Origin: Erysipelotrichaceae bacterium
Lineage (GTDB): Bacteria > Bacillota_I > Bacilli_A > Erysipelotrichales > Erysipelotrichaceae
Assembly (NCBI GenBank): GCA_029227155.1
Contig: JAQXZJ010000008.1
Span: 1-32,771 of the forward strand
Length of the DNA: 32,771 nucleotides
Direction of reading: 5' to 3'
Under the pieces are notes generated by a model. It saw only the letters and a program-made list of their open reading frames with translations, did no database searches and had not been told where the DNA came from. Below are positions 1 through 28,273 of this stretch, one piece after another; the first letter of the stretch is position 1; every line of letters begins with the position of its first letter. The translations under genes and the position numbers were made by a program.

Positions 1-1829
1 CATTTATTCATTTGTGGTATATTGCTATCCTGTTACAGTTTGAGTTGGTATATCCAATTGTCTTTTTGTTGTTGCAGAAAACTAGAAAGATTGCGAATCG
101 TCTTCCTTCCATTATCACTGGATTATTAACTCTCGGTTTTACTATTTGGTTCTTAGTTTGTTCCAATCAAGCTCCAATTACTGTTGTATACTACAATACC
201 TTCACTAGAATTTTTTCATTATTAATGGGAGTTACCACCTGTTTTATTCATCATTCGTTAGAAATAAAAGATTCATCAAATAACAAAGTACCTAGCATCA
301 TCTTTTATGGTAGTTTAGCACTACTGATTGCGCTATTCTTCTATATCGATTCAGCTAACAAATTATTTGCGGTTGTTATGGTTATTACTAGTATCATCAG
401 CTGCATTACGATTGAATGTGCAGTTGCTGTTGATACAACCAAAAATACTTTTATTAATAAATTCTTAAGAGGAATTTCTGATATCAGTTATGAAGTTTAT
501 TTGGTCCAGTATCCAGTTATTTATCTATACCAGATTCTAGCCACTAATCAGGAAGATATTTACTTAAGGGCATTGATAGTGTCGCTGATTACATTTGTTG
601 TTTCAATTCTTATTCATTTTGCTTTATCAAAGAGAAATAGTATAAAGAAGCTGCAGATTGCTTTGTGTGCTTTATTTGTGGTAGTTAGTTTATTTGGTGG
701 TTATCAATATGTGATAGCTGAAGATCATACAGCAGAAATGAAACTGTTGGAAGAAGAGTTGGCGGCTAGTGCTGCTGAAATGGAAACACAAAAAGCAGAA
801 TATGAAGAAAAACTGAAACAAGAAAATGATGCTTGGGAAACGTTGTTAGCTCAACTAGAACCGGATGAGGAAACAATCAAACAGACAGTATTACAGTTGC
901 CTGTTGTCTTTATTGGCGATTCTGTTATGTTAGGAGCTGCACCAGATTTAAGAGGAACTTTTGATAATGGATATGTTGATGCTAAAGTTTCAAGAACTGG
1001 TTGGGTAATGGCTGACATTGTCAAATCATTGCGTATTAAGGGACCGGTAGTCATACATGCAGGAACCAACGGAGATGTACCTGAGTATGTAAAAGATAAA
1101 ATTATGAGTTACTGTGGGGATCATGATGTATTTTGGCTTACGGTAACTAATGATAGGGATGTTCATGTAAATGATAAATTAAGGAAATTTGTTGAGAAAT
1201 ATGAAAATGCTTATTTAATTGACTGGCAACAGCATTCAAAGGGACATAACAACTGGTTTTATGGTGACAAAATTCATTTACAGTCTTCAGGAAGAAAAGC
1301 CTATACGGAGTTAATTTACAATTCAATTTATCAAGTTAAGCTAGATGAACTGAATCGTAAAAGAGAGGAAGCGATTCAAGAACACGAAAATCAACTTAAG
1401 AAAAAAATTAGTTTCTATGGTAATGATTTGTTGATAGGATTATATGAACAGTTAAGTGGCGAATATAGGGAAGCAAGCTTTGTTGCAGAGAAGTACGTGG
1501 ATGCTGAAACGTTATTAGTTCAATTAAAACAAGCAAAACAGGAAGAAACGTTAAACTATAACGTAGTACTGGTTCTTGATTCTTCATTTGAAATGGACAA
1601 TGAAACTTTGAAGAAGATAAAAGAATTCTGTGAAGATAAGGAAATCTATATTGTTACTACTGTGCATCGAAATGATTTGTCTGATGTCCATATGATTTCA
1701 TTCCAATCAGTATTGGATGAACATCCTGAATATTACAGCCCAGATAGGGTTCATTTGACTCAACAAGGAAATGTTGAACTATTTCATATAATTGTTAATT
1801 CACTGAACAAAGAGCGGAGCATTAAATAA
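1..1829 (+). CDS. Acyltransferase-3 membrane protein with tandem C-terminal SGNH domains (5' partial)
   Basis: OatA/OafA-like O-acyltransferase that moves acetyl groups across the membrane onto a cell-surface glycan, probably peptidoglycan or teichoic acid (family knowledge). The frame is open to base 3, and the first residues (FIHLWYIAILLQFELVYPI) match the internal acyltransferase-3 motif, so roughly the first 130-160 residues lie off the window. Counting from the TTG at base 12, membrane helices run to about residue 235. A charged coiled coil (about 240-285) leads to an extracytoplasmic SGNH hydrolase-like domain with GDS at 302-304 and DKIH at 419-422. A second, weaker copy of that domain follows (about 460-605): GND at 470-472 in place of GDS, but DRVH retained at 578-581. 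The first copy should be the transferase; the second has no serine nucleophile. Transcription probably stops at the short hairpin over the stop codon. Confidence 0.88.
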   Translation, partial: FIHLWYIAILLQFELVYPIVFLLLQKTRKIANRLPSIITGLLTLGFTIWFLVCSNQAPITVVYYNTFTRIFSLLMGVTTCFIHHSLEIKDSSNNKVPSIIFYGSLALLIALFFYIDSANKLFAVVMVITSIISCITIECAVAVDTTKNTFINKFLRGISDISYEVYLVQYPVIYLYQILATNQEDIYLRALIVSLITFVVSILIHFALSKRNSIKKLQIALCALFVVVSLFGGYQYVIAEDHTAEMKLLEEELAASAAEMETQKAEYEEKLKQENDAWETLLAQLEPDEETIKQTVLQLPVVFIGDSVMLGAAPDLRGTFDNGYVDAKVSRTGWVMADIVKSLRIKGPVVIHAGTNGDVPEYVKDKIMSYCGDHDVFWLTVTNDRDVHVNDKLRKFVEKYENAYLIDWQQHSKGHNNWFYGDKIHLQSSGRKAYTELIYNSIYQVKLDELNRKREEAIQEHENQLKKKISFYGNDLLIGLYEQLSGEYREASFVAEKYVDAETLLVQLKQAKQEETLNYNVVLVLDSSFEMDNETLKKIKEFCEDKEIYIVTTVHRNDLSDVHMISFQSVLDEHPEYYSPDRVHLTQQGNVELFHIIVNSLNKERSIK

Positions 1830-1837
1830 TGCTCTTT
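1817..1837 (+). terminator. Short hairpin at the end of the acyltransferase gene
   Basis: GAGCATT and AATGCTC form a 7-bp stem around a 4-base loop that contains the stop codon, followed by TTT. This is a weak terminator candidate. Confidence 0.4.
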
Positions 1838-1933
1838 ATGCATTACGAAACAGCACGAAATCAATTATTTCATAAATACATCTTGTTTATATGTTCAGAG
1901 GACAATATAAACTAAGAAATAAATTCCTGAGGA

Positions 1934-2572
1934 GTTGATCAAATTTTAGAGGTATATGTTTATGATACATGGTATAATCCAGATAAGTAATCTTCTTTAG
2001 ATCGACTAAAGATGAAAATGATTGCTTTCTAATGCGAATTGATCAATACATTGGAATAAATCATTCCTGCTGATACATTATGGAGTTTCTCCTCCATTCA
2101 AACATTATATGGTTTTTGGATCATTACCAATACCCTCATCGTACTATATAGCACTTCCGCCTTTTTAGCAGGAATTAGTTCGTTTTTATATATGTTTGGC
2201 ATGACACTTAGTTTCTATGTCTTACCGATAGTATTGGGATTGTTTATTCCTATGTTTTCCGGAGATTTTCGGTTTTCGTTGTTTATTCTCTATACAATTC
2301 TTGCCATTTTATGTGGTATTGCAACGCTTATCCTTTATGGCTGGAACAAAAATCATTCCTTTTCTTCCATATTATATGCATTGCCTGTAGGTGCTTTGGC
2401 TGCGGAAACATTTGCGGTTTCCATATATTTAGTCAAGTATCATACATTTTTGTTTCAGCTTCTTATGGATGGCGTAGGAACCATCGTTTTTGGCATTATG
2501 TTGTATCGAAAATCCCGAAATAAAATACTGTTTTTTGTTTCTTTCGTAGTAAGTTTCTTGGTGTTTTATTAG
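1934..2572 (+). pseudogene. Decayed gene for a multi-pass membrane protein
   Basis: One reading frame stays protein-like from about 1934 to 2572 but is cut by three TAA stops at 1988, 2030 and 2057. Each stop could be a former CAA (Gln) codon. The upstream piece reads LEVYVYDTWYNPDK, then SSLDRLKMKMIAF, then CELINTLE, and flows without frame change into IIPADTLWSFSSIQTLYGFW and at least four hydrophobic helices up to LVFY at 2569. The only sizeable open stretch with an ATG begins at 2192 and has no ribosome binding site, so it is probably not an independent gene. I do not recognise the family. The intact ancestor would have been about 210 residues with an N-terminal soluble segment of about 40 residues. 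Alternatively the 3' part is still translated from a non-ATG start after 2059. Confidence 0.6.
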
Positions 2573-2610
2573 CTTTTCTATGTTAGTATATTTAAGGAGT
2601 AAATGAAAAC

Positions 2611-3321
2611 ATGAAAACATTAAAAAAGATCATGACAATGATAGTAATTCTTATGGTTGTTGTTACAGTCGTTTTTCTAATAGGTCGTTTTGGGTGGAAA
2701 TTAGGCGGTTTCCATGCTTGTCAAGGAGCCGGTATTACTTCTTTGGAAGTCAACGAGAAGGATGTACATATTACTGGTTTCTATCCAGGCTCTTTCCCAG
2801 AAGGCTTCTGTGGCTATTATGCGAAAGAGGAAGATGGAACTCTCTATGTAGGATTCCACTTTAGTGCTGTGTTTGGCTTTTTTGAGACAGGAAACTTTGA
2901 TATCACGATCCCAGTGAAAAATAAAATTAACGAAGTTGTTATTAAAACGAAAATGAATGAATTCCCTATTTGGAATAAGGAAACTGGTTTGAATTTCCAG
3001 TCCGATCGTAATGGCGTTTATGTTAAATTGGAACGAAATGATGTGTACTCTATTTCTATGAGTTATGCGGGTAGCAGTGGAAGTATGAACTGTACAGATC
3101 ATACTGCTATGGATTGTGGAGTATACCATTTTATAGATAACGATATTATGATGGTTTCAAAGGATTTAGAGACTGTTATCCCTTTTACGATTTCTGTTAA
3201 AGATGCGGATGGAAAAGAATTAGTTTCTCAAGATTTTTCTTTTGATGCTAGTAAGGGAAATATGTATCTGCTTGTTACTGCGGAAGGAAAGATAATGGAG
3301 GATAACAATGGGGAAGAGTAA
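2611..3321 (+). CDS. Membrane-anchored extracytoplasmic protein of unknown function
   Basis: 236 residues. A basic N-terminus (MKTLKKI) and one hydrophobic helix at about 8-28 anchor a soluble domain outside the cell. The domain is beta-rich with many aromatic and Gly residues, and has paired cysteines (CQGAG near 37, CGYY near 67, and two in NCTDHTAMDCG near 160-170) that could form disulfides. No catalytic motif or known family is recognised. AAGGAG lies 11 bases upstream of the ATG, slightly far; a nearer ATG at 2603 stops after three codons. The next gene starts inside its last codons, so the two are translationally coupled. The four genes 2611-4824 probably form one transcript ending at the hairpin at 4825. 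Confidence 0.75.
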   Translation: MKTLKKIMTMIVILMVVVTVVFLIGRFGWKLGGFHACQGAGITSLEVNEKDVHITGFYPGSFPEGFCGYYAKEEDGTLYVGFHFSAVFGFFETGNFDITIPVKNKINEVVIKTKMNEFPIWNKETGLNFQSDRNGVYVKLERNDVYSISMSYAGSSGSMNCTDHTAMDCGVYHFIDNDIMMVSKDLETVIPFTISVKDADGKELVSQDFSFDASKGNMYLLVTAEGKIMEDNNGEE

Positions 3322-3706
3322 AAAAATAATCCTAGTAGGTATTTTGTTGTTGCTTGTTATAGGGGCTGTCGGATATCTTTTCAACTACAATCAAGAGGGT
3401 TTTACAGGAAGTCGAATTAAAAATCCAGATTTCTATTTACTAGATATTGAGAGAATGAATGGAACGGATTTACATACGATGGAGTTGCATGAGGATGACG
3501 TATTACAAATTCACATGAAAACAGAAAAGGGTTCTATGTATATGGAAATGAAAGCACCTGATGGTACAGCAATCTATCAAGGAAACGGAAAAGAAATAAC
3601 GGAATTTACGATTAAGATTCCGGAAAATGGAGTCTATACGATTGTTGCTGAAGCGAATCATGCCAAAGGATTGATTCGTATTCAACGAAAGGAGAAAATG
3701 GAATGA
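3308..3706 (+). CDS. Small single-helix membrane-anchored beta-sandwich-like protein
   Basis: 132 residues. A start KKIILVG, a hydrophobic helix at about 6-24, and then an external domain of alternating beta-strand-like stretches (LHTMELHEDDVLQIHMK, GSMYMEMKAPDGTAIYQG, TEFTIKIPENGVYTIVAEA). The last part (PENGVYTIVAEANHAKGLIRI) resembles the end of immunoglobulin- or GOLD-like sandwich domains, but I cannot name a family. GGAGG at 3297-3301 sits inside the end of the preceding gene, 14 bases of which overlap. The stop overlaps the start of the next gene (ATGA at 3703). The tight coupling suggests a complex with both neighbours. Confidence 0.75.
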   Translation: MGKSKKIILVGILLLLVIGAVGYLFNYNQEGFTGSRIKNPDFYLLDIERMNGTDLHTMELHEDDVLQIHMKTEKGSMYMEMKAPDGTAIYQGNGKEITEFTIKIPENGVYTIVAEANHAKGLIRIQRKEKME

Positions 3707-4251
3707 AATCTCTACAAACGATTCAGAAGACTTTTCGAATCTTTCAAAATCTCACAAAAATGGCTTATATTTTTTGTATTGTTGGAGCATCAGTCTGTGC
3801 GGTTGGTGTTTTATGTGTCATGATGTGGTATACGAAAGGTGAGGTGATCAGCCTTTTTGGGAAACCGGTGATTATGTTTGTCGGTAGTGAAAGCCAAAGT
3901 CAGATGTTAGCAGTATTGCTTTCTGAGATGGTTTTTCTGATTACGGACGCGGTTCTTTTGGGCTTTGTTAATTATTATTTAAAGATTGAACAAGCAGAAG
4001 GAACTCCTTTTACGAAAAATGGTGCTAATTTGATAAAGAAGATTGGAATTCGTTGTATCTATATGCCTATTGTGGCAACTATTATTTCTTCAGTAATCAT
4101 GGATTGTTTTGATGTACAGAAGAATTTCGATTTTAGTAATTTCTCTAGTGTGGCTACAGGAATTGCTCTGATACTGATTTCTTTTGTCTTCTGTTATGGT
4201 GCAGAGTTGGAACAAAGAATTCATTCCTTAGAGAGGAATGATCAGGAATGA
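3703..4251 (+). CDS. Four-helix membrane protein, DUF2975-like
   Basis: 182 residues. Four hydrophobic helices are visible at about 18-42, 65-88, 110-132 and 147-166. After helix 2 comes the cytoplasmic loop QAEGTPFTKNGANLIKKIG, whose EGTPFT...L.K.G pattern recalls DUF2975 membrane proteins, often found beside small HTH regulators (family recollection, moderate confidence). No regulator is adjacent here. The start overlaps the previous stop by four bases, and the next gene begins 7 bases after its stop. The tail (ELEQRIHSLERNDQE) is charged and helical. Function unknown; the context suggests a membrane complex with the two anchored proteins upstream. Confidence 0.7.
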   Translation: MKSLQTIQKTFRIFQNLTKMAYIFCIVGASVCAVGVLCVMMWYTKGEVISLFGKPVIMFVGSESQSQMLAVLLSEMVFLITDAVLLGFVNYYLKIEQAEGTPFTKNGANLIKKIGIRCIYMPIVATIISSVIMDCFDVQKNFDFSNFSSVATGIALILISFVFCYGAELEQRIHSLERNDQE

Positions 4252-4257
4252 GGAAAG

Positions 4258-4824
4258 ATGGTGGAAAAGAATAGAATGCAAGCACATAAATGGAATATTG
4301 CGGATACGATAACATCTATAAGGATTGGTGCTTCTGTTTTGTTGCTTTTGTTTCCTTTACACTCTATTGCATTTTTTGTTGCGTATACTTTAACAGGTAT
4401 TACGGATGTATTGGATGGCTGGATTGCCCGTAAAACAGGGACAGCTAGTGATTTTGGAGCACGGTTAGATAGTATTGCAGACTTGTTGTTTTACGGTATT
4501 GTATTGTTACGTTTGATACCATATTTATGGCAGCTGCTACCACTTGAAATCTGGTATTTTGTGATGGCTATTTTGCTGATTCGCTTGGCTGCATATGGTA
4601 CAGCCGCAATAAAATATCATCGCTTTGCGTCTTTACATACTTGGATGAACAAACTAACGGGAATGTCTGTGTTCTTATTACCGTATTTCCTAGTATGTAC
4701 AATAGGTGTTGTATATAGTTGGGTGGTATGTGCTTTGGCTTTTCTTTCTTCCTTAGAGGAACTCTTGATTCATCTGATTCATAGAAGTTACAATGCTGAT
4801 ACAAAGTCGATATTGCAAAAATGA
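4258..4824 (+). CDS. CDP-alcohol phosphatidyltransferase
   Basis: 188 residues. It transfers a phosphatidyl group from a CDP-linked lipid to an alcohol such as glycerol-3-phosphate, inositol or serine, in the inner membrane. The whole signature D-x2-D-G-x2-A-R-x8-G-x3-D-x3-D is present: D50, D53, G54, A57, R58, G67, D71, D75. Five to six hydrophobic helices surround it. Length fits PgsA-type enzymes (about 180-200). The alcohol acceptor cannot be read from the sequence; its position at the end of a run of uncharacterised membrane proteins, not with lipid-synthesis housekeeping genes, suggests a specialised or second copy. GAGGAATGATCAGGAATGAGGAAAG before the ATG supplies the ribosome binding site. 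Confidence 0.88.
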   Translation: MVEKNRMQAHKWNIADTITSIRIGASVLLLLFPLHSIAFFVAYTLTGITDVLDGWIARKTGTASDFGARLDSIADLLFYGIVLLRLIPYLWQLLPLEIWYFVMAILLIRLAAYGTAAIKYHRFASLHTWMNKLTGMSVFLLPYFLVCTIGVVYSWVVCALAFLSSLEELLIHLIHRSYNADTKSILQK

Positions 4825-4868
4825 TGTGAAGAATAAGTGTTATTGTAATACTTAATCTTCGCATTTTT
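4825..4868 (+). terminator. Rho-independent terminator of the 2611-4824 unit
   Basis: Long imperfect stem: TGTGAAGA-TAAGTGTTA pairs with TAATACTTA-TCTTCGCA around a TTG loop, followed by TTTTTATTT. It starts directly after the TGA stop. Confidence 0.85.
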
Positions 4869-4970
4869 ATTTCTATCTTATAGAAAGGATTATTTGGTTG
4901 TGTTAAAATATTCACAAGCAATGGATATCTCTTTAGGACTTTAAATTTTCATGAGAGAGGGGTAAAACAT

Positions 4971-5678
4971 ATGAGTTTTGAGAATAAAGTTGTAGTTATA
5001 ACAGGTGGTGCTCATGGGATTGGGAAAGCGATTGCTGAATCTTTTCGTAAGGAAGGAGCACTGGTTGAAGTCATTGATATTGCCTCTGGTGATCATTATA
5101 TCGGTGATATCAGCAAGAAAGATGCTTTAGAGGTGTTTGCTTCTTATGTGTTAGATAAGTATGGTCATGTAGATTATTTGATCAATAATGCTCTTCCTTT
5201 GATGAAGGGAATCGATGAATGTTCCTATGAAGAATTTCAATATGCTTTATCTGTTGGTGTTACAGCACCTTTCTATCTTAGTAAACTATTTTCTGAACAT
5301 TTTACAAAAGGTGGAGTTATTATCAATATTTCTTCATCTAGAGATCGTATGAGTCAGCCTCAAACGGAAAGCTATACTGCAGCAAAAGGTGGTATTGCGG
5401 CTTTGACTCATGCGCTTGCAGTTAGTTTTTCAGGTAAGGTGCGGGTGAATTCCATATCTCCGGGATGGATTGATACAGAATACCGTGAATATGAAGGTGC
5501 TGATGCTCTTCAACAGCCAGCAGGAAGAGTTGGAAATCCAATGGATATTGCGAATATGGTTTTATTTCTTTGTTCGGATAAGGCTGGATTCATTACGGGA
5601 GAAAATATCTGTATTGATGGTGGTATGACGAAGCAGATGATTTATCATGGGGATCATGGTTGGAAGATGGAAAGGTAA
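4971..5678 (+). CDS. Short-chain dehydrogenase/reductase (SDR)
   Basis: 235 residues, a classical-length cytosolic NAD(P)-dependent oxidoreductase. The cofactor motif TGGAHGIG lies at 11-18, with an acidic DIASGD after strand 2 that favours NAD(H). NNA follows strand 4 (INNALPL), catalytic Ser candidates are at 121-123 and YxxxK is Y135/K139. The C-terminus has SPGWIDTEYRE and the family ending TGENICIDGGM. The substrate (sugar, polyol, 3-oxoacyl group) is not evident. GAGAGAGGGGTAAAACAT gives a good ribosome binding site. The gene stands alone between terminators at 4825 and 5691. Confidence 0.88.
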   Translation: MSFENKVVVITGGAHGIGKAIAESFRKEGALVEVIDIASGDHYIGDISKKDALEVFASYVLDKYGHVDYLINNALPLMKGIDECSYEEFQYALSVGVTAPFYLSKLFSEHFTKGGVIINISSSRDRMSQPQTESYTAAKGGIAALTHALAVSFSGKVRVNSISPGWIDTEYREYEGADALQQPAGRVGNPMDIANMVLFLCSDKAGFITGENICIDGGMTKQMIYHGDHGWKMER

Positions 5679-17695: not shown

Positions 17696-18964
17696 ATGAA
17701 AAAGATTACGATTATTTTACTTACTGTATTTATGTTCTTTGGACTAGTTGCTTGTGGTAACAAAGATACAGATACAGGAAATGATGGGCCTGTGGAAATT
17801 ACATTCTGGCATACATACACAGAGCATCATCAAGCATTCTTGAACGAAATGATTGATGAATTCAATAATAGCCAAGATCAGGTTAAAGTTGTAGCTGTTC
17901 AACAACCTTATCAAGATTATGATGCTAACTTATTACAAGCAATTCGTAATGGTGTTGGACCAGATATCTGCAGTCGTTTCGCAACCAATGTAGCTGATTA
18001 TATTGAGGATGATTTGTTGGTAGACTTTGCACCATATATCAATGATTCTAAGAATGGTATTCCTAATTTCAAGGAAAACCTAATTGGTAATTTGTATGGT
18101 GAGATTACACAATGGGGTGATGGTTCTATTTACATGATTCCTGTTATCGTTACTTCTGAAGTGTTATATTATAATAAAACTTTATTTGACAAATACAATC
18201 TAGAAGTTCCTACTACCTGGGAAGAATTAGAAACGGTAAGTCGTTTCCTATATGAAAAAACTGGTAAACCTGGTTTTGGTACGGACTCTGCTATTGATAC
18301 TTTCCAAGGTCTATTGATTCAAAATGGTTCTAATTACATCGATGCGAAAACAAAATCAATGGATGTAAATGAAACGATTGCTTTGGATCAATTGAATTGG
18401 TTAGCTGATGGAATTAAAGAAGGTATTTTCCGTCTTCCTGGTGATGATTACTATTTATCTGGACCATTTGTTTCTCAAGCTGTTGCTTCTTATATCGGTT
18501 CTAGTGCTGGTGTTGGTTATGCTATGGCTAACGATGGTGCTTTCGAAGTTGGCGTTGCTCCAATTCCTCAAGCTGATAAAAATAGCCAATACATTTCTTC
18601 TTGGGGTGGTGGATATGTATGCTTTAAATCTACTGATGCGAAAGCAAAAGCTGCTTATACATTCTTGAAGTGGTTTACAAGTGCTGAAAATGATGCAAAA
18701 TGGGCTACTTATTTTGGTGCTTTACCTGCTTATGAAGATGCATTAGAAACAGATACATTCAAGAATAGTTTGAATGATAATTTAGCAATCAAAGCGTTGT
18801 ATGAATCAAAAGATGCTGTTAACTGGTTGAATAGTATCAAAGGATCTGCAAGCGTTCGTACTGCAATTGATAAGATGATTTCTGAAGTTTGCTTAACTGG
18901 TAGAGATGCTAAGGCAGCTTATGATGAAATGATCGCTACTTCTAATAAAGAATTAGGACAATAA
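17696..18964 (+). CDS. Extracellular solute-binding lipoprotein, ABC sugar family (UgpB/MalE-like)
   Basis: 422 residues. A lipoprotein signal peptide ends at LVAC (lipidated C20), so the protein sits on the outer face of the membrane. The mature domain opens EITFWHTYTEHHQAFLNEM, has FDKYNLEVPTTWEELE and YYNKTLF in the first lobe and WGGGYVCFKS and AAYTFLKWFTSAENDAKW in the second, all standard for family-1 carbohydrate-binding proteins. The FWHTYT start and the FLKW segment are closest in pattern to UgpB, which binds glycerol-3-phosphate and glycerophosphodiesters, but I cannot confirm the ligand. GAAAGGAAAC precedes the ATG. The transport genes follow after a strong hairpin, so this protein can be made in excess. 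Confidence 0.9.
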   Translation: MKKITIILLTVFMFFGLVACGNKDTDTGNDGPVEITFWHTYTEHHQAFLNEMIDEFNNSQDQVKVVAVQQPYQDYDANLLQAIRNGVGPDICSRFATNVADYIEDDLLVDFAPYINDSKNGIPNFKENLIGNLYGEITQWGDGSIYMIPVIVTSEVLYYNKTLFDKYNLEVPTTWEELETVSRFLYEKTGKPGFGTDSAIDTFQGLLIQNGSNYIDAKTKSMDVNETIALDQLNWLADGIKEGIFRLPGDDYYLSGPFVSQAVASYIGSSAGVGYAMANDGAFEVGVAPIPQADKNSQYISSWGGGYVCFKSTDAKAKAAYTFLKWFTSAENDAKWATYFGALPAYEDALETDTFKNSLNDNLAIKALYESKDAVNWLNSIKGSASVRTAIDKMISEVCLTGRDAKAAYDEMIATSNKELGQ

Positions 18965-18979
18965 TAATATTTATATGTA

Positions 18980-19015
18980 AATTTAACCATACGCCTTTTG
19001 GTGTATGGTTAAATT
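18980..19015 (+). terminator. Intercistronic hairpin between binding protein and transporter genes
   Basis: A 16-bp stem (AATTTAACCATACGCC with its complement, one G-T pair) and a TTTT loop, but no U-tract afterwards. It is more likely a partial terminator or an RNA stabiliser that raises binding-protein mRNA over the downstream genes, as in mal and many other ABC importer operons. Confidence 0.8.
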
Positions 19016-19037
19016 ATATAAAAAGGGAGATTTTTAT

Positions 19038-20096
19038 ATGAAAGTAAGAGTTGAAAAGTTGACAAAGCGATTTAATGATGTGACTGCGGTTAATGAATTA
19101 ACGGCAGAGTTTGAGAGTGGAAAATTAATTGCTTTATTAGGCCCAAGTGGTTGTGGAAAAACAACGATGTTGAATATGCTTTCAGGTATTTTGCCAGTGA
19201 CTGATGGAAAAATATTTTTTGATGAAGAGGATGTTACTGATTTACCTCCAGATAAAAGAGAGGTTGGCCTTGTATTTCAAAACTATGCTTTGTATCCTCA
19301 TATGTCGGTTTTAGAGAATATTTGTTTTCCGTTGAAGATTAAAAAAGTTCCGAAAGCGGAAAGAATTAAAATTGCAAAAGAATATGCCAAAATGGTGCAT
19401 ATTGATGAATATTTAGATCGTAAACCAAAAGAACTTTCTGGTGGTCAACAACAACGGGTTGCGATTGCGCGTGCGTTAGTTAAGAAACCTAGATTGTTAT
19501 TATTGGATGAACCTTTGAGTAATCTTGATGCGAAGTTGCGTGTGGAAATGCGTGAAGAGATTCGTCGTATTCAAAGAGAATCAGGGGTTACTACGTTCTT
19601 TGTTACCCATGATCAAGAAGAAGCTTCTGCTATTTCTGATTACATTATGTTAATGAAAAAAGGAGTTATGCAACAATTTGATCATTCTCGACAATTGTAT
19701 AATGAACCATCCAATCTGTTTGTAGCAGATTTTATCGGGGCACCTACGATTAATCAATTGCATGGAGAATGGACCAAAGAAGGAATCAAATTAGACACAT
19801 ATGATACAGTGATTCCGTTTGCGAAAGGTAATAATATTCCAATTAATCAACGGATTGTTTTTGCTTGTCGTGCAGAAGCAATCATTGTTTCCAATCGTGG
19901 CACAGTAAAAGCAACTGTTGTGGATACCTATTTGAGTGGAAAAGATGTACTTGCAAATTTACAATTAGGTGAACAAATGTTGCGTACGTATATTGCGGAT
20001 GATATGAATCCAGAGGATGGTATGGAAGTATATCTAGCATTCAAAGAAGCTGGTGTCTTCGTATTTGATGAAGAAACAGGTGAGCGTTATGCTTAG
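19038..20096 (+). CDS. ABC importer ATPase (UgpC/MsmK/MalK type)
   Basis: 352 residues, the normal length for CUT1 sugar or glycerol-phosphate importers. Walker A GPSGCGKTT at 35-43, Q-loop in VFQNYALYPHMSV, signature LSGGQQQRVAIARAL, Walker B LLLLDEPLSNLDA, switch His in FVTHDQEEA. The last 120 residues form the TOBE/OB regulatory domain (RIVFACRAEAIIV). It energises the two permeases downstream. The ATG at 19038 is preceded by AAAGGGAG; an in-frame start further up lies in the hairpin. The following gene begins within its final codons (ATG in GTTATGCTTAG). Confidence 0.94.
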   Translation: MKVRVEKLTKRFNDVTAVNELTAEFESGKLIALLGPSGCGKTTMLNMLSGILPVTDGKIFFDEEDVTDLPPDKREVGLVFQNYALYPHMSVLENICFPLKIKKVPKAERIKIAKEYAKMVHIDEYLDRKPKELSGGQQQRVAIARALVKKPRLLLLDEPLSNLDAKLRVEMREEIRRIQRESGVTTFFVTHDQEEASAISDYIMLMKKGVMQQFDHSRQLYNEPSNLFVADFIGAPTINQLHGEWTKEGIKLDTYDTVIPFAKGNNIPINQRIVFACRAEAIIVSNRGTVKATVVDTYLSGKDVLANLQLGEQMLRTYIADDMNPEDGMEVYLAFKEAGVFVFDEETGERYA

Positions 20097-21000
20097 GTAT
20101 AAAACAAAAAATGATGAAGTGATTACACCTAAAACGTTTTTAAAGCCCACTTTGTATTTACTTCCATTTATGATTGGAGTTCTAATATTTACAGTCTATC
20201 CATTCTTTAACGCAATCTTGATTAGTTTTAAAGAAGATTTCAGAGTAATGACTGATGAATTTTCTGGTTATGGATTAGGGAACTATGCTCATATTTTAAG
20301 TGATTCTACTTTCATTTCATCTATTTACAATACAATTATTTATGTTGTAGTTGTTGTATCAATATCCTTGATTATTTCTTTATTCATTGCTGTGATGTTA
20401 AACAATATCAAAAGACTTCAAGGGTTGTATCAGACAGCATATTTTATGCCAATTGTTACTTCAAGTGCTGCCATTGGGCTTGTTTGGCGTTGGATTTTTA
20501 ACTATGACTATGGAATTTTGAACTACATTCTATCTATATTTGGACAGGATGCGATCAATTGGTTAAATAATCCAAAGTATTCGCTAGTTTGTCTTTGTAT
20601 TTATGGAATCTGGTCTATGTTACCAATGACGATTATTCTGTTATTATCGGGATTACAGAATATTGATCCTCAATATTATACGGCTGCTAAAGTTGATGGA
20701 GCGAAATCAAAAGATATCTTTACTAATATAACAGTTCCTTTATTAGCACCTACAATTGGTTTAGTTGCTATCATTAATATGATTTCAGCATTTAAGGTGT
20801 TTGAAGGCCTCTATGTATTGTTTGGTGGTAAGCCAGGTCCTGCTTACAATCTATATACTGTTATTTTCTATTTGTATGATCAGTTCTATACGAAGTTTAA
20901 GGTTGGTTATGCAGCAGCGAGTGCAATTATCTTATTCTTAATTATTTTAGTATTTACTGTGTTACAGAATAAGATTCAGAAGAAATACGATTATTATTAA
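20089..21000 (+). CDS. ABC importer permease, MalF/UgpA type
   Basis: 303 residues with six membrane helices. The ATG at 20089 overlaps the stop of the ATPase gene and has CAGGTGAG upstream; a longer reading frame would overlap the ATPase by more than 40 bases. The binding-protein-dependent transport motif (EAA loop) is YTAAKVDGAKSKDIFTNITVPLLAP at about 195-220, where the ATPase docks. The N-terminal segment KPTLYLLPFMIGVLIFTVYPFFNA is typical of the A subunit. It pairs with the next gene product as a heterodimeric channel. Confidence 0.92.
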   Translation: MLRYKTKNDEVITPKTFLKPTLYLLPFMIGVLIFTVYPFFNAILISFKEDFRVMTDEFSGYGLGNYAHILSDSTFISSIYNTIIYVVVVVSISLIISLFIAVMLNNIKRLQGLYQTAYFMPIVTSSAAIGLVWRWIFNYDYGILNYILSIFGQDAINWLNNPKYSLVCLCIYGIWSMLPMTIILLLSGLQNIDPQYYTAAKVDGAKSKDIFTNITVPLLAPTIGLVAIINMISAFKVFEGLYVLFGGKPGPAYNLYTVIFYLYDQFYTKFKVGYAAASAIILFLIILVFTVLQNKIQKKYDYY

Positions 21001-21014
21001 TAGAGGTGTGAACT

Positions 21015-21842
21015 ATGAAAAGGCAAGAGTATATTAAAAATATAGTTTTATATTCTTTATTAACAATTGGTGGAATTTTTATGATTTTTCCATTCTTCTG
21101 GATGATTGTTACTTCTTTAAAGACGGCGGCAGAATCGAATCATGTACCTCCAACTATTTTTCCAGCGGAGCCAATTATTGAAAACTATTTTAAAGCATTA
21201 GATATTGCACCATTTGGTACGTATTTTATGAATTCAGTAATGGTAACGGTTTGTTGTGTTGCGATTACGATGTTTACTACGATTTTAGCAGCATATGCAT
21301 TTTCAAAGTTAAAGTTCCCTGGAAGGGATAAGTTGTTCTTCTTGTTGTTATCGATGATGATGATTCCTTTTGAAATGTTGATCATTACCAACTATACAAC
21401 GATTGTTGATTGGGGACTATATGATAATTTGTTAGCATTAATTATTCCATTTACCAGTAGTATTTTCTATACGTATATCTTACGGAATTTCTTTATGTCG
21501 ATTCCGGATAGTTTGTATTATTCGGCGAAGGTTGATGGGGCTAGTGATTGGCAGTTCTTGTGGGAAGTTATGGTTCCTATGGCTAAGACTTCTTTGGTAA
21601 CCATTGGTTTGTTAAATGCAATTACTTGTTGGAATAGTTTCTTGTGGAGTATTCTGGTTATTAAATCGCAAGGAAATCGTACTCTTCCATTTGGATTGTT
21701 TGCGTTTACTAATGAAGCGGGTATTCATTATGAGTTATTAATGGCTGGAGCTACGATTGTTGTCATTCCAATGATTATTTTATTCTTGTTCTGTCGTAAG
21801 AGCATTGTAACAGGTGTTTCTAGAGGTGGATTAAAAGGCTAG
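21015..21842 (+). CDS. ABC importer permease, MalG/UgpE type
   Basis: 275 residues with six helices. The start FPFFWMIVTSLKTAAE is the standard MalG/UgpE opening, and the EAA loop is YYSAKVDGASDWQFLWEVMVPM (about 175-196). PFGLFAF near the end and a short basic tail complete it. The spacing to the first permease is 14 bases, with AGAGGTG before the ATG. The next gene starts 64 bases downstream after a hairpin, so this closes the importer part of the operon. Confidence 0.92.
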   Translation: MKRQEYIKNIVLYSLLTIGGIFMIFPFFWMIVTSLKTAAESNHVPPTIFPAEPIIENYFKALDIAPFGTYFMNSVMVTVCCVAITMFTTILAAYAFSKLKFPGRDKLFFLLLSMMMIPFEMLIITNYTTIVDWGLYDNLLALIIPFTSSIFYTYILRNFFMSIPDSLYYSAKVDGASDWQFLWEVMVPMAKTSLVTIGLLNAITCWNSFLWSILVIKSQGNRTLPFGLFAFTNEAGIHYELLMAGATIVVIPMIILFLFCRKSIVTGVSRGGLKG

Positions 21843-21850
21843 TGTTTATG

Positions 21851-21878
21851 ATTGGGAAGTATCATGGTATTTCCCAAT
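21851..21878 (+). terminator. Intercistronic hairpin between importer and hydrolase genes
   Basis: ATTGGGAA/TTCCCAAT plus four further inner pairs (two G-T), CATG loop, followed by CTTTG. The U-tract is weak, so it is a probable partial terminator or processing site within the operon. Confidence 0.6.
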
Positions 21879-21906
21879 TCTTTGTATTACTTAGAAAGGA
21901 GTATTT

Positions 21907-23382
21907 ATGTCAATCGTTAAATTAGATATTTTGAATCATGCGGATTATGGTGGAGAGTTTCGGGAACATGATATTGCTCCGGGATTGAGTCGTTTTTATA
22001 GTGCGATTGAATCGGTAAGAAGCTTAAATAGAGAGCATACACTTTTATTGGATGCTGGTGATAATATTAATCGTGTTCTATGGCATGGGAAAGAAGTGTT
22101 TGAAGGTTTAGCGTTGATTGGAACGGATGCGTATACGTTGGGAAATCATGAATTTGATCGTGGAAAAGAAGAACTAGAGGAGGCGATTGACTATGTTAAA
22201 GATCGTTTCCCGATTCTTTGCAGTAATATCTTGTTGAAAGATACGCAAGAATTGATTCAAGGGGTTCAACCATATGTCATCTTAGATAAAGGTGGTATTA
22301 AAATCGGTATCGTTGGTTGTACAACGGAATACACCCCATATATGGTGGAACAAGAGGCGTTCAAAGACTTTGTGGCTATTTCATCTGTAGAAGCTTTGCG
22401 TGCTTATATTCCTAAGATGCGTGAAGAAGGGGCTGAAGTAATTGTTGTTCTCACACATTTTCCATTCTATTTTACAGAAGATAGTGAGAGTGGTGAATTG
22501 TTAGATGTGTTCGAGGCGATTGAAGATCTGAAACCAGATGCGATGATTGGTGGACATATTCCTGGTGATTATGCTAGAGTTGTACGTAATTGTGCAATTA
22601 CAAAAGGTGGTTTTGGTGGTAAGTCATTACCACATATTGAGCTCTATTTTGATACGGAAACGCGCAAAGTAGTGGATCGTAAGTGTAGAATGATTGATGT
22701 ATGGCATGGTAACTTTGAAAAGAATCCCCGAATTGATGCTTTTGTGGAAAGAGTAACAGGCCCGTATGATTATTATTTTGAAGAAGTATTAGGAGAAGCC
22801 ATCGAAGATATTCCAATGCGTTTATCAAAAGAAAGTCCTATGGGGGATTTATTGAGTGATGCTGTACGAGAAATGATGAATGTAGACTTTGCATATTTTA
22901 ATTGTACCAGTTGTGGTTGGTCGATTCCGAAAGGGGATATTACTCGTTTTGTAATTAGTAAAGCCATGGGATTCAATGATCCTTTACAAGTAAGTGAGTA
23001 TACTGGACAAGATATTTGGAATTTGTTTACATTAGTCTATGAACCGGAACGGTTTGGTAATAATGGAAATTTGATGTTTTCTGGTTTGAAAGTTGAAATT
23101 GATAATACAAAACCATATCCAAATAAAGTAGTTTCAATTCAAGAACTTGATGGTAAGAATCTTGATTTGAAGAAGAAATATCGGGTAGTTACTAGTAAAT
23201 ATATGGCAAGTGGCGGTAATGATACGCGTATTATTTCTAGTCGTGTACAATGGTTAAATACAGAAATCCCAATTCATGATATTTTGGCAGCTTATGTTAT
23301 GAAACATAAGAAACTGAGTTGTCCACAATTGGGGCGTTATCCGATGATTGGTGAAATTGAGAATGATAATTCACCTTGGTAA
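21907..23382 (+). CDS. Cytoplasmic 5'-nucleotidase-fold metallophosphatase with an altered metal site
   Basis: 491 residues, no signal peptide, unlike most 5'-nucleotidases. The calcineurin-like domain has D13, GDN (D52), GNHE (N80, H81), H184 in VLTHF, and GGHIP (H217). The first motif reads DYGG where DxHG is normal, and the last reads GHIP where GHxH is normal, so both His ligands of metal site 1 are absent (G15, P219) while all site-2 ligands remain. The C-terminal 5_nucleotid_C domain is present (SPMGDLLSDAVREMM, FNCTSCGWSIPKGDIT, YTGQDIW, SGGNDTR), but the usual GGGIR substrate arginine is replaced by SCGWS. It may be a one-metal enzyme of new specificity or a binding protein. GAAAGGAG precedes the ATG. 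Confidence 0.85.
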   Translation: MSIVKLDILNHADYGGEFREHDIAPGLSRFYSAIESVRSLNREHTLLLDAGDNINRVLWHGKEVFEGLALIGTDAYTLGNHEFDRGKEELEEAIDYVKDRFPILCSNILLKDTQELIQGVQPYVILDKGGIKIGIVGCTTEYTPYMVEQEAFKDFVAISSVEALRAYIPKMREEGAEVIVVLTHFPFYFTEDSESGELLDVFEAIEDLKPDAMIGGHIPGDYARVVRNCAITKGGFGGKSLPHIELYFDTETRKVVDRKCRMIDVWHGNFEKNPRIDAFVERVTGPYDYYFEEVLGEAIEDIPMRLSKESPMGDLLSDAVREMMNVDFAYFNCTSCGWSIPKGDITRFVISKAMGFNDPLQVSEYTGQDIWNLFTLVYEPERFGNNGNLMFSGLKVEIDNTKPYPNKVVSIQELDGKNLDLKKKYRVVTSKYMASGGNDTRIISSRVQWLNTEIPIHDILAAYVMKHKKLSCPQLGRYPMIGEIENDNSPW

Positions 23383-23392
23383 AGGAGAATCT

Positions 23393-24799
23393 ATGAAAAC
23401 AAAAATCAAGTTTTATGGTGGCTTAGATACAATTGGCGGTGTAGTCATGAGTATTGTATATGGGAAAGAAAGAATTCTATTAGAAATAGGGACTGCTTAT
23501 GATCCGGCAACGGATGTGTTTGATGGTCATGTAAAACATCGGGATGATCATTATTTATATGATGAATTATGTCTACATCGAGCACCATTGGTTGAAGGAT
23601 TATATGCAAAAAAGGATATTGAGGATTTTCCTTTATTGGCACAAGAAGATTCTGATTTACATACATCAATCTTTATTACTCATATGCATTTGGACCATAT
23701 GTCATGTATGGGACTTGTTTCTGATGATGTGGATGTCTATTTAAGTGAACCAGCAAAACGTTTGGAAGAGGCTTTAGAAACGACTGGTAAAGGGGTGTAT
23801 ACTTTACGGACAAAAGGCTATCAAACATTGGATCCCAATAAGGAGTATCAGATTGGAAAGATGATACTCAAACCATTTCTAATAAATGATCAAAGCTATC
23901 AGGATTATTCGTTCTATATAAAAACACCGGATATGAAGTTACATTATACGGGTGATGTTGTTTTACATGGGAATTATGCTGAAAATGTCTGGAAGGAAAT
24001 GGAATACATTAAAAATGAACACGTAGATGTATTAGTTTGTGATACAACTTCACTAATGGATTCAACGATGATTATGATGTATCAAGATGTAAATGCTGAA
24101 ATAATAGGACAAAAAGAGATTCCTGAGGGTATGTTGAGTAAAGCAATGGTGAATGAAGCTCTCTGTGAACAACTGAAGAATGAACAAGGATTATGTGTTT
24201 TCAATTTCTATGAACGTGAGATGGAAGAAGTGCGTAATTTCCAAAGTATGGCTAAAAGATGTAATCGTATCATTGCGTTTGAACCAGAGACAGCATATTT
24301 AATATGGAAATTCTTTGATGAAATGGTAAATGTTTATGTTCCAGATAAAGAATATGATCAACAATGGTTTTATGATTTATTAGAGCACAATTCTGTAATT
24401 ACAAAAAAAGAAATATATGCAGAACCTAACAAATATTTAATTCAGAATACCTATGAACATCTATTAGAATTGTTAGATTTACCGAATCAGAATGCAAGTT
24501 ATTTACATTCAGGCGGTATGCCAATGGGTGCCTATGATCCAGCATACGAAAATTTACAAAGAGTCTTAAAATTAAGTGGATTTACTCATATTAATTTCTT
24601 TATGAACCGGTATTTTACGCACGCTTATCCACAACAACTGAAGTATTATTGTGATCAGATTGATGCAAAAGTTTTGATTCCAACTCATGGATATCAACCA
24701 GAGCGTTTATTGGCTACAAATGGTAGGATGCGCTTGTTGCCAAAGAAATATGCTACCTATGTTTTGGATGGTGAACAATTGGTGGAGGTAACAGAATGA
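23393..24799 (+). CDS. Metallo-beta-lactamase-fold protein 1, beta-CASP-like
   Basis: 468 residues, cytoplasmic. The fold signature HMHLDH lies at 97-102, and YTGDVVLHG with D188 is the bridging Asp motif. The region between strands normally holds a third-His motif (HS); here the matching position is Q167 (NDQSYQDYSFYI), so a metal ligand appears lost. Residues 220-380 form an inserted alpha/beta segment like a beta-CASP domain, and the C-terminal PTHGYQPERL (H432) resembles the RMMBL ending of RNase J/CPSF73 and related hydrolases. About a third of its residues match the next gene product along the full length. The start has AAAGGAGA five bases upstream, and the stop overlaps the next start. 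Confidence 0.82.
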   Translation: MKTKIKFYGGLDTIGGVVMSIVYGKERILLEIGTAYDPATDVFDGHVKHRDDHYLYDELCLHRAPLVEGLYAKKDIEDFPLLAQEDSDLHTSIFITHMHLDHMSCMGLVSDDVDVYLSEPAKRLEEALETTGKGVYTLRTKGYQTLDPNKEYQIGKMILKPFLINDQSYQDYSFYIKTPDMKLHYTGDVVLHGNYAENVWKEMEYIKNEHVDVLVCDTTSLMDSTMIMMYQDVNAEIIGQKEIPEGMLSKAMVNEALCEQLKNEQGLCVFNFYEREMEEVRNFQSMAKRCNRIIAFEPETAYLIWKFFDEMVNVYVPDKEYDQQWFYDLLEHNSVITKKEIYAEPNKYLIQNTYEHLLELLDLPNQNASYLHSGGMPMGAYDPAYENLQRVLKLSGFTHINFFMNRYFTHAYPQQLKYYCDQIDAKVLIPTHGYQPERLLATNGRMRLLPKKYATYVLDGEQLVEVTE

Positions 24800-26199
24800 A
24801 AACAAAGATCCAGTTTATAGAAGGACTTAAGGGTAGTGGAGTTGTCGTAAGTATAACTTATGGAAATGATCGTTTATTGTTTGACTTTGGTGCTCCATTT
24901 CGGCCGGATACACAGGTTTATGATGGTGTAATCTTACATCGGAAACAGAATGCTCTATTAGATGCGTTACGTTTGGGTGAAACTCCTAAAGTGGATGGTA
25001 TATATCCAAAAAATGATTTATGTTTGTTTGATGGTAGCGTTTATGAAAATATTGTGCCAAGTGAAGATTCTACAATCAAGACTGCTGTTTTGATTTCACA
25101 TTTACACTTAGATCATATGAGTAATATTTGTTATTTGGATCCTTCTATTCCTGTTTATATGCACAAAAATGGCAAGAAACTATTAACAGTATTAGAAGAT
25201 ATACAGGAAGGGACACCTCATGAACGGGTTGTTGGAATTGATTATGAAGTTCCATTTACCCATGGTCCATTTACGATTACTCCATATTTTAATGATCATC
25301 CATGTTTTGGCTCGACGAGTTATTATATCGACTGCCCAGATATGAAGATAATGTATAGTGGGGATATTCGTTTTCATGGTTTATCTCAAGAAAAAGCATT
25401 TGCGGAAATTGAGAAAATCAGCCATAGAGAGATTGATCTATTGATTGTGGATGGCACAAGTTATTCACCTAGTGAGTTTGTTCATGATCCGAATCAAATT
25501 GAAGAATTGTCAAAACCAAGTAAAGATGTATTACAAGGAATGTTTTTGGAGAAACATATTTATGAGGATGTCGTTTATCGCTTAAAGAGTTCACAGAGTT
25601 TGGGATTCTTTTGTACCTATCATCGAGATATGCAGTTGATTGAAGCTTTGATTGAATATCTTTCTAAGATTGATCGAGAGATTGTATTTGAAGTAGAAAC
25701 TGCTTATGTGGTTCAAAATGTATTGCATTGTCCTGTGAAGTTTTACTGTTCAAGTCATCAGCAAGATTCAAAGATTCTTGAATCTGTTCGAATAAACAAC
25801 GTAGAATTATCATTTGCGGATATCAATAACCATGCCAATCAATATGTAGTACAGGTTTCCTATAAGAATCTAATGAATTTGTTCTCGTTGAACACTCAAG
25901 GTGGAATTTATTTTCATTTATTTGGGGATCCTTTTCATAAGAGCGGTTCTAGGAATTTAGAAAAAATGTTAACGATGAATGAAATTGAGTATGTAGGTTA
26001 TTCGAATGTGTATTCGTTTAATCATGCGTTTCCGAATCATTTAAGTTGGATGTTAAATACCTTACAACCAAAAAATGTGGTTTGTGTACATTCGCGAAAT
26101 CCTGAGAAGTTGAATGCGATGGGTGCAAATCATGTATTACCGCATCAGAATGAAGTATATGTTTATGAAAATAATAAATTAAAATGCATTGGTGAATAA
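24796..26199 (+). CDS. Metallo-beta-lactamase-fold protein 2, beta-CASP-like paralogue
   Basis: 467 residues, colinear with the preceding protein (shared start MKTKI.F, LLFDFGAPF/LLEIGTAYD, and matching ending). Here the metal site looks complete: HLHLDH at 102-107, H168 in NDHPCFGSTSYYI, D190 in YSGDIRFHG, and a late His in VCVHSRNPEKL. The family includes nucleases and phosphodiesterases of RNA, DNA and small molecules; substrate not readable. ATGA overlap with the upstream gene means coupled translation, and the intact/defective pairing suggests a heterodimer with one active subunit. The final codons form part of the operon terminator. Confidence 0.83.
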   Translation: MKTKIQFIEGLKGSGVVVSITYGNDRLLFDFGAPFRPDTQVYDGVILHRKQNALLDALRLGETPKVDGIYPKNDLCLFDGSVYENIVPSEDSTIKTAVLISHLHLDHMSNICYLDPSIPVYMHKNGKKLLTVLEDIQEGTPHERVVGIDYEVPFTHGPFTITPYFNDHPCFGSTSYYIDCPDMKIMYSGDIRFHGLSQEKAFAEIEKISHREIDLLIVDGTSYSPSEFVHDPNQIEELSKPSKDVLQGMFLEKHIYEDVVYRLKSSQSLGFFCTYHRDMQLIEALIEYLSKIDREIVFEVETAYVVQNVLHCPVKFYCSSHQQDSKILESVRINNVELSFADINNHANQYVVQVSYKNLMNLFSLNTQGGIYFHLFGDPFHKSGSRNLEKMLTMNEIEYVGYSNVYSFNHAFPNHLSWMLNTLQPKNVVCVHSRNPEKLNAMGANHVLPHQNEVYVYENNKLKCIGE

Positions 26200-26220
26200 A
26201 CCAATGTATTTTAATTTATT
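26173..26220 (+). terminator. 21-bp terminator stem overlapping the last codons of MBL protein 2
   Basis: The arms 26173-26193 and 26200-26220 are complementary along all 21 positions (one G-T pair) around a 6-base loop that contains the stop codon. The arms are AT-rich, with TTTTAATTTATT on the 3' side. It ends the operon that starts at 17620. Confidence 0.8.
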
Positions 26221-27560: not shown

Positions 27561-27568
27561 GAGTGTTT

Positions 27569-28273
27569 ATGAAGATTGGCATTATTACAGATGTTCATAA
27601 CAATGTAATAGCGTTAGAAGCTATCCTAGATGTTTTTCATAAGCAATCTATTGATTGTATCTTTTGTTGTGGTGATGTAATTGGAATTGGACCTTTTCCA
27701 GAAGAAACGGTACAAAGAATGAAACAAATTGAGAATCTATATGCTGTTTGTGGGAATCATGAGAAGTATCTATTGGATGGATTAAAGGATACGATGTATG
27801 AGGAGGAGAAGGCTTTTCATAAGTGGGAGCATCAACTTTTATCACAAGATTCTATTCGCTTTTTAGCATCTTTACCCAATCAAATAGATTTGGAAGTAGA
27901 AGGTGTTTCTTGTACGATTTTACATTACGCAATGAAAGACACCACGAATTACCAGAAGATAATAAAGGAGCCTACAGGAAAACAATTATCTGAATTATTT
28001 AAGGGTATCAATAGTACGATTATTTTATATGGGCATGATCATAAAGGCTGTATAACGCAATATAATAACTGTTGGTATATTAATGTTGGTTCTTTGGGAT
28101 GTCCTGGTATAAATAGAAATGTAGCTTGTGGAGGGATTCTAACCATTGAGAAGGATAAAATAGATTTTGAAGATATTAAAGTTATTTATGATGCAAATCA
28201 GGTATTAGATGTTATGAATGAATTACAATGCCCGGCATTACATACGATTCAGAGGACATTTTATGGTAGATAA
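27569..28273 (+). CDS. YfcE/MJ0936-like calcineurin-type phosphoesterase
   Basis: 234 residues from ATG 27569, six bases after TAGGAG. All metal motifs are intact: DVHNN (D8, H10), CGDVIG, GNHEKY, an ILHYA histidine, and YGHDHKG. That is the full D-x-H / GD / GNH / GHxH set that the 5'-nucleotidase-fold protein at 21907 lacks in part. YfcE-like enzymes hydrolyse phosphodiesters such as bis-pNPP in vitro; the cellular substrate is generally unknown. Its last 11 bases overlap the next gene, so they are probably cotranscribed with the flavin reductase. Confidence 0.88.
   Translation: MKIGIITDVHNNVIALEAILDVFHKQSIDCIFCCGDVIGIGPFPEETVQRMKQIENLYAVCGNHEKYLLDGLKDTMYEEEKAFHKWEHQLLSQDSIRFLASLPNQIDLEVEGVSCTILHYAMKDTTNYQKIIKEPTGKQLSELFKGINSTIILYGHDHKGCITQYNNCWYINVGSLGCPGINRNVACGGILTIEKDKIDFEDIKVIYDANQVLDVMNELQCPALHTIQRTFYGR

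Follow-up and report, generated by a model that had tools for sequence, protein, structure and literature searches.

The window, i.e., the whole 32,771-nucleotide stretch of DNA from an Erysipelotrichaceae bacterium that was analyzed here, contains a co-directional gene cluster, in which the genes of an importer (solute-binding protein, ATPase and two permeases) are accompanied by a 5'-nucleotidase-fold gene and two MBL-fold genes:

17696-18964, forward strand: solute-binding protein (SBP) of the importer, UgpB/sugar type (profile matches)
19005-20096, forward strand: UgpC/MalK-type ATPase (profile match)
20053-21000, forward strand: permease of the UgpA type (profile match); its start as listed falls within the ATPase gene, and an internal ATG is present near 20089
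21015-21842, forward strand: permease of the UgpE type (BPD_transp_1)
21907-23382, forward strand: 5'-nucleotidase-fold protein of 491 aa without a signal peptide (ORF and translation, Pfam, AF2 model, Foldseek)
23393-24799, forward strand: MBL-fold hydrolase 1, with an ATG start and an intact HMHLDH motif (ORF, profile, motif)
24796-26199, forward strand: MBL-fold hydrolase 2, with an intact HLHLDH motif, related to the uncharacterised protein EF2904 (2az4) (profile, motif)

In comparisons with NCBIfam models, the SBP reached 64.3 bits vs. a UgpB cut-off of 411 and the ATPase 347 bits vs. a UgpC cut-off of 432, so that both are related to these families and not certified as their members. The tandem MBL-fold proteins (23393-26199) share approximately 30% identity. 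Two terminator-like hairpins were distinguished: (i) one of 13 pairs (21850-21879), located between the second permease gene and the 5'-nucleotidase-fold gene, a possible partial terminator, and (ii) one of 20 pairs (26174-26219), located at the 3' end of the last MBL gene. No riboswitch that might give a clue to the substrate was found.

The 491-aa protein has a two-domain architecture, composed of PF00149 (Metallophos; E 1e-9) and PF02872 (5_nucleotid_C; E 9.8e-27). Its AF2 model, which is metal-free, is confident (pLDDT 90, pTM 0.88) and was matched by Foldseek to the T. thermophilus 5'-nucleotidase (2z1a), the closed state of CD73 and E. coli c4898 (3ivd), each with a TM of ~0.8, as well as to UshA. 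With UshA, CD73 and 3ivd (all PF00149 plus PF02872) the protein shares the fold, the GD and GNHE blocks, the first GHxH histidine, the catalytic His/Asp pair and the aromatic clamp positions, but it differs from them in lacking the signal peptide, the DxH histidine and the last GHxH histidine (Gln in UshA). Its N-terminus leads directly into strand 1, and no signal peptide was recognized, the best 15-residue hydropathy starting within the first 30 residues being 0.65. The residues of the metal sites and of the substrate pocket are located as follows:

21937-21951, forward strand: motif I, H11-A12-D13-Y14-G15, canonically (T/S)-N-D-x-H; G15 stands in place of the metal-1 His, and H11 is a clade-specific invariant residue (alignment)
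22060-22062, forward strand: bridging ligand D52 of the GD block (invariant)
22144-22158, forward strand: N80-H81-E82-F83-D84, comprising the metal-2 Asn and the catalytic His/Asp pair
22456-22458, forward strand: metal-2 ligand H184 (invariant)
22552-22569, forward strand: G216-H217-I218-P219-G220-D221, GHxH turned into GHxP-G-D (alignment)
22603-22605, forward strand: K233, mostly Gln in canonical homologues (alignment)
22900-22923, forward strand: NCTSCGWS where (N/S)GGGIR is expected (alignment)
22972-22974, forward strand: F356, an invariant Phe and first aromatic clamp residue, aligned with F429 of UshA and with CD73 F417
23200-23202, forward strand: Y432, an invariant Tyr and second aromatic clamp residue, aligned with F498 of UshA and with CD73 F500

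Three hallmarks of UshA-type proteins are thus missing, i.e., the DxH of motif I (DYGG, with G15), the GHx(H/Q) of motif V (GHIP, with P219) and the GGGIR arginine of the C-terminal domain, whose column holds Gly, while the GD block, GNHE(D), the lone His and the catalytic His/Asp pair are retained (D52, N80, H81, D84, H184 and H217). The first-pass annotation had listed D13, D52, N80, H184 and H217 as kept, which is accurate residue for residue in the translation and the alignment; it had likewise correctly seen G15 and P219 in place of both metal-1 histidines and SCGWS instead of GGGIR, a motif whose Arg is present in 12 of the 13 canonical outgroup rows. Metal site 2, described there as complete, does keep each canonical ligand, together with the catalytic pair. 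Since each of the 22 canonical homologues that were aligned from related genomes has DxH and GHxH, the double departure of the window protein is not background variation. Gln254 of UshA is a metal-1 ligand. The assumption that the last GHxH position is generally a His ligand was too broad, as UshA carries Gln254 there, in a pocket list (1USH) that comprises His252, Ser253, Gln254 and Asp255 (PMC6765856). Two aromatic residues sandwich the base in UshA/CpdB (PMC10454023), and both have counterparts, by alignment only, in F356 and Y432.

The same bacterial family also encodes canonical 5'-nucleotidase-fold proteins of ~490 aa, possibly YunD-like, which resemble the window protein in length, domain order and an N-terminus close to strand 1, but keep DxH and GHxH, mostly have (G/S)xIR and share only ~22-27% identity with it.

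Homologues were searched for in genomes of the relatives of the window organism and of its family, order, class and phylum, as well as in GTDB contigs. Close relatives were found in 19 genomes, all belonging to one family (Erysipelotrichaceae or Erysipelotrichia by title); outside this family, among 395 genomes of the class and 392 of the phylum, the only match at E 1e-45 was one canonical multidomain protein. Motif V reads GHxP in 27 and GHxN in two of the 29 clade sequences, so the change of GHxH is fixed. Motif I is far more variable: among the 27 sequences in which it is readable, the DxH histidine is kept in eight and replaced in 19 (by G in 6, S in 6, C in 3, A in 2, and D and N in one each). 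The exact DYGG/GHIP pair, which the first-pass annotation had suggested looking for in homologues, was found in two further genomes (G770 and G771), and not in the wider clade with its fixed motif V change and variable DxH.

On a maximum-likelihood tree, built from an alignment without the motif columns, the GHxH change requires a single event and the DxH changes at least two. Most simply, GHxP had a single origin, on the stem of the clade, and DxH was eroded afterwards, more than once; this order leans partly on the outgroup states, because the deep forks of the clade are not settled by the tree. Less simply, the DxH histidine could have been lost early and then regained. Under either history, the motif distribution and the tree rule out a single coordinated double loss, and the notion of two coordinated losses put forward in the first-pass annotation must be abandoned.

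The remaining active-site residues are strictly conserved: N80, H81, D84, H184 and H217 in 29/29 clade sequences, D52 in 28/28 and D13 in 27/27 readable rows. Three further residues are invariant in the clade, and rare or absent in the 13 canonical outgroup rows: (i) H11 (27/27), two residues ahead of D13, where the outgroups have Ser, Thr, Leu or Ile, (ii) D221 of GHIPGD (29/29), two residues past the lost GHxH position, which is variable in the outgroups, and (iii) K233 (29/29), where the outgroups mostly have Gln. Judged by these sequence patterns, D221 and H11 suggest themselves as candidate replacement ligands, and K233 is a candidate for charge compensation. In the GGGIR arginine column, 27 of 28 clade members have Gly, and the remaining one has Asn. 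As both clamp aromatics are kept while this Arg is lost, the clade residue set suggests a ring-bearing ligand with different phosphate contacts.

A degenerating gene or an assembly error could be suspected, given the fragmentation of the window genome assembly (131 contigs), but this explanation is extremely improbable: the same motif state is present in independent genomes, the reading frames are open throughout, the gene order is conserved, and the dN/dS values in eight clade pairs (0.03-0.33) are far below 1, indicating purifying selection. Recent mutation, pseudogene formation and assembly error are accordingly ruled out by the independent genomes, gene order and dN/dS; a recent mutation would have undone the first-pass annotation, yet altered motif states recur in independent genomes. 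Its proposal of an altered centre under selection is supported by clade-wide fixation, dN/dS of that order and a conserved operon.

In 15 of the 19 genomes, the 5'-nucleotidase-fold gene, present in one copy or two, comes after importer genes, in the order SBP-[NPP or MBL]-UgpC-permA-permE-5NT or parts of it, which makes it the last gene, or a late one, of an uptake operon. G773 was counted among the 15 with a single permease gene (permE) visible before the contig end, and the operons of G003 and G712 are each divided between two contigs. The slot between the SBP and ATPase genes is occupied by an NPP-type phosphodiesterase gene (PF01663) in G002, G003, G712, G718, G720, G722, G048 and G772, by an MBL-fold gene in G025, G762 and G767, and by neither in G770 and G771; the NPP proteins of the sister operons scored 133.6-154.7 bits with PF01663 (cut-off 23). 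That NPP and MBL proteins share this slot in different genomes suggests that they are interchangeable phosphodiesterases. No importer is present beside the clade gene in G008, G711, G724 and G725; in G724 it is adjoined by an NPP gene, and in the other three by neither NPP nor importer genes. The operon resembles the Ugp system for uptake of sn-glycerol-3-phosphate and glycerophosphodiesters in having an SBP, two permeases, a UgpC-type ATPase and a gene for a phosphodiesterase (in E. coli, ugpQ), but its phosphodiesterases have the NPP or MBL fold and are not of the GlpQ type, and it contains the additional 5'-nucleotidase-fold gene. This usual location in an importer operon, the Gly in place of the GGGIR Arg and the invariant H11, D221 and K233 also set the clade apart from UshA, CD73 and 3ivd.

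Tandem copies of the 5'-nucleotidase-fold gene are present in seven loci: L039 (8386-11334), L078 (6546-9464), L079 (2901-5821), L080 (2731-5649), L083 (1077-3988), L084 (33-2944) and L040 (9594-12535). In L039, L078, L079 and L080 one copy has DxH and the other lacks it, whereas in L040, L083 and L084 DxH is lost in both copies, the second copy of L083 and L084 having GHTN. Mixed tandems of this kind are a possible pattern for enzyme/pseudoenzyme pairs, and, with the GGGIR Arg and two of the ligand positions lost, the window protein could be a non-catalytic cytosolic protein with a binding or regulatory role in the operon, which kept the fold and lost hydrolysis. We regard this as rather unlikely, since no copy deviates at H81, at D84 or at the ligand residues that are left, and the pairing is not obligate: the only copy is H-less in the window genome, G770 and G771, and H-retaining in G711, G724 and G725. 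An obligate heterodimer of H-retaining and H-less copies was rejected as well, because many genomes carry one type only.

As the change is shared by a whole conserved subfamily, usually encoded beside a transporter, the protein gives the impression of a functional enzyme that was reworked and not damaged. In the reading that we favour, and to which we give an even chance, the window protein, with its UshA/CD73 fold, is a phosphohydrolase that works in the cytosol on a phosphorylated compound brought in from outside, and its metal-1 site has been remodelled. In the G002 NPP protein, too, no signal-peptide-like stretch could be read at the start of the sequence, and as the window protein also lacks one, import followed by hydrolysis is the most economical order of events. 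A UgpBAEC-like ABC importer would take up the compound, probably a nucleotide-like or other ring-bearing organophosphate, the NPP-type or MBL-fold phosphodiesterase may cleave a diester, and the 5'-nucleotidase-fold protein would then remove the phosphate. Catalysis would retain the metal-2 site (D52, N80, H184 and H217) with His81 and Asp84; loss of the last GHxH ligand may have made the DxH histidine dispensable, and D221 and H11, possibly with K233, may now bind or replace metal 1.

Enzymes of the 5'-nucleotidase family are generally described as requiring a two-metal centre. A one-metal enzyme, an option already raised in the first-pass annotation, in which metal 1 is abandoned, metal 2 and His81 carry out hydrolysis and K233 perhaps supplies the lost positive charge, is unlikely in our judgement. 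It would agree with the invariance of K233 and of all canonical metal-2 ligands, and with position 15, which in several lineages has drifted to Gly or Ala, neither of them a ligand, as though it were no longer used; against it, the canonical metal-1 ligand D13 is invariant, the DxH histidine persists in part of the clade, and the fixed D221 could be a ligand. More broadly, we tentatively propose, as a possibility on the doubtful side, that the clade represents a 5'-nucleotidase-fold series in which metal site 1 was dismantled stepwise (GHxP, then DxH), leaving a centre either single-metal or rebuilt with Asp, His and Lys, for a phosphorylated compound imported whole by a dedicated and hitherto undescribed operon.

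In MPPED2, Gly stands in place of a GHxH histidine. Another superfamily member, LpxH, shows a lineage-specific change of the GNHE His to Arg (PMC3087551). Lineage-specific changes of a single block are thus already known in the superfamily; LpxH and MPPED2 have one block changed each, whereas in the window protein two positions of metal site 1 are affected. A search of the open-licence literature turned up no description of this operon or subfamily, and no case of metal site 1 being altered throughout a clade, with graded second losses and with tandems in importer operons. Routine annotation would label the clade genes "5'-nucleotidase". By its fold and catalytic residues the window protein may function in the manner of UshA-type enzymes, but given its failure in the three UshA-type sequence tests (DxH, GHx(H/Q) and GGGIR), it is better classed in a divergent subfamily (the "GHIPGD" clade) within the superfamily than as a 5'-nucleotidase. 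The operon points to an uncharacterised route of organophosphate uptake in gut and anaerobic-digester Erysipelotrichaceae, and tandem copies with different residues at one metal-1 ligand position, within the same operon and cell, constitute a natural experiment on the role of each metal.

Shortly downstream of the cluster, the window encodes a YfcE-like metallophosphoesterase (27563-28273; TIGR00040, 58.4 bits vs. a cut-off of 56.25). A second, homologous importer operon of the same genome is located on contig C102 (L088, G000:C102:1-15000; positions 1-5333); it lacks a 5'-nucleotidase-fold gene and has the order SBP-NPP-UgpC-permease-permease, followed by an aldo/keto-reductase-like gene.
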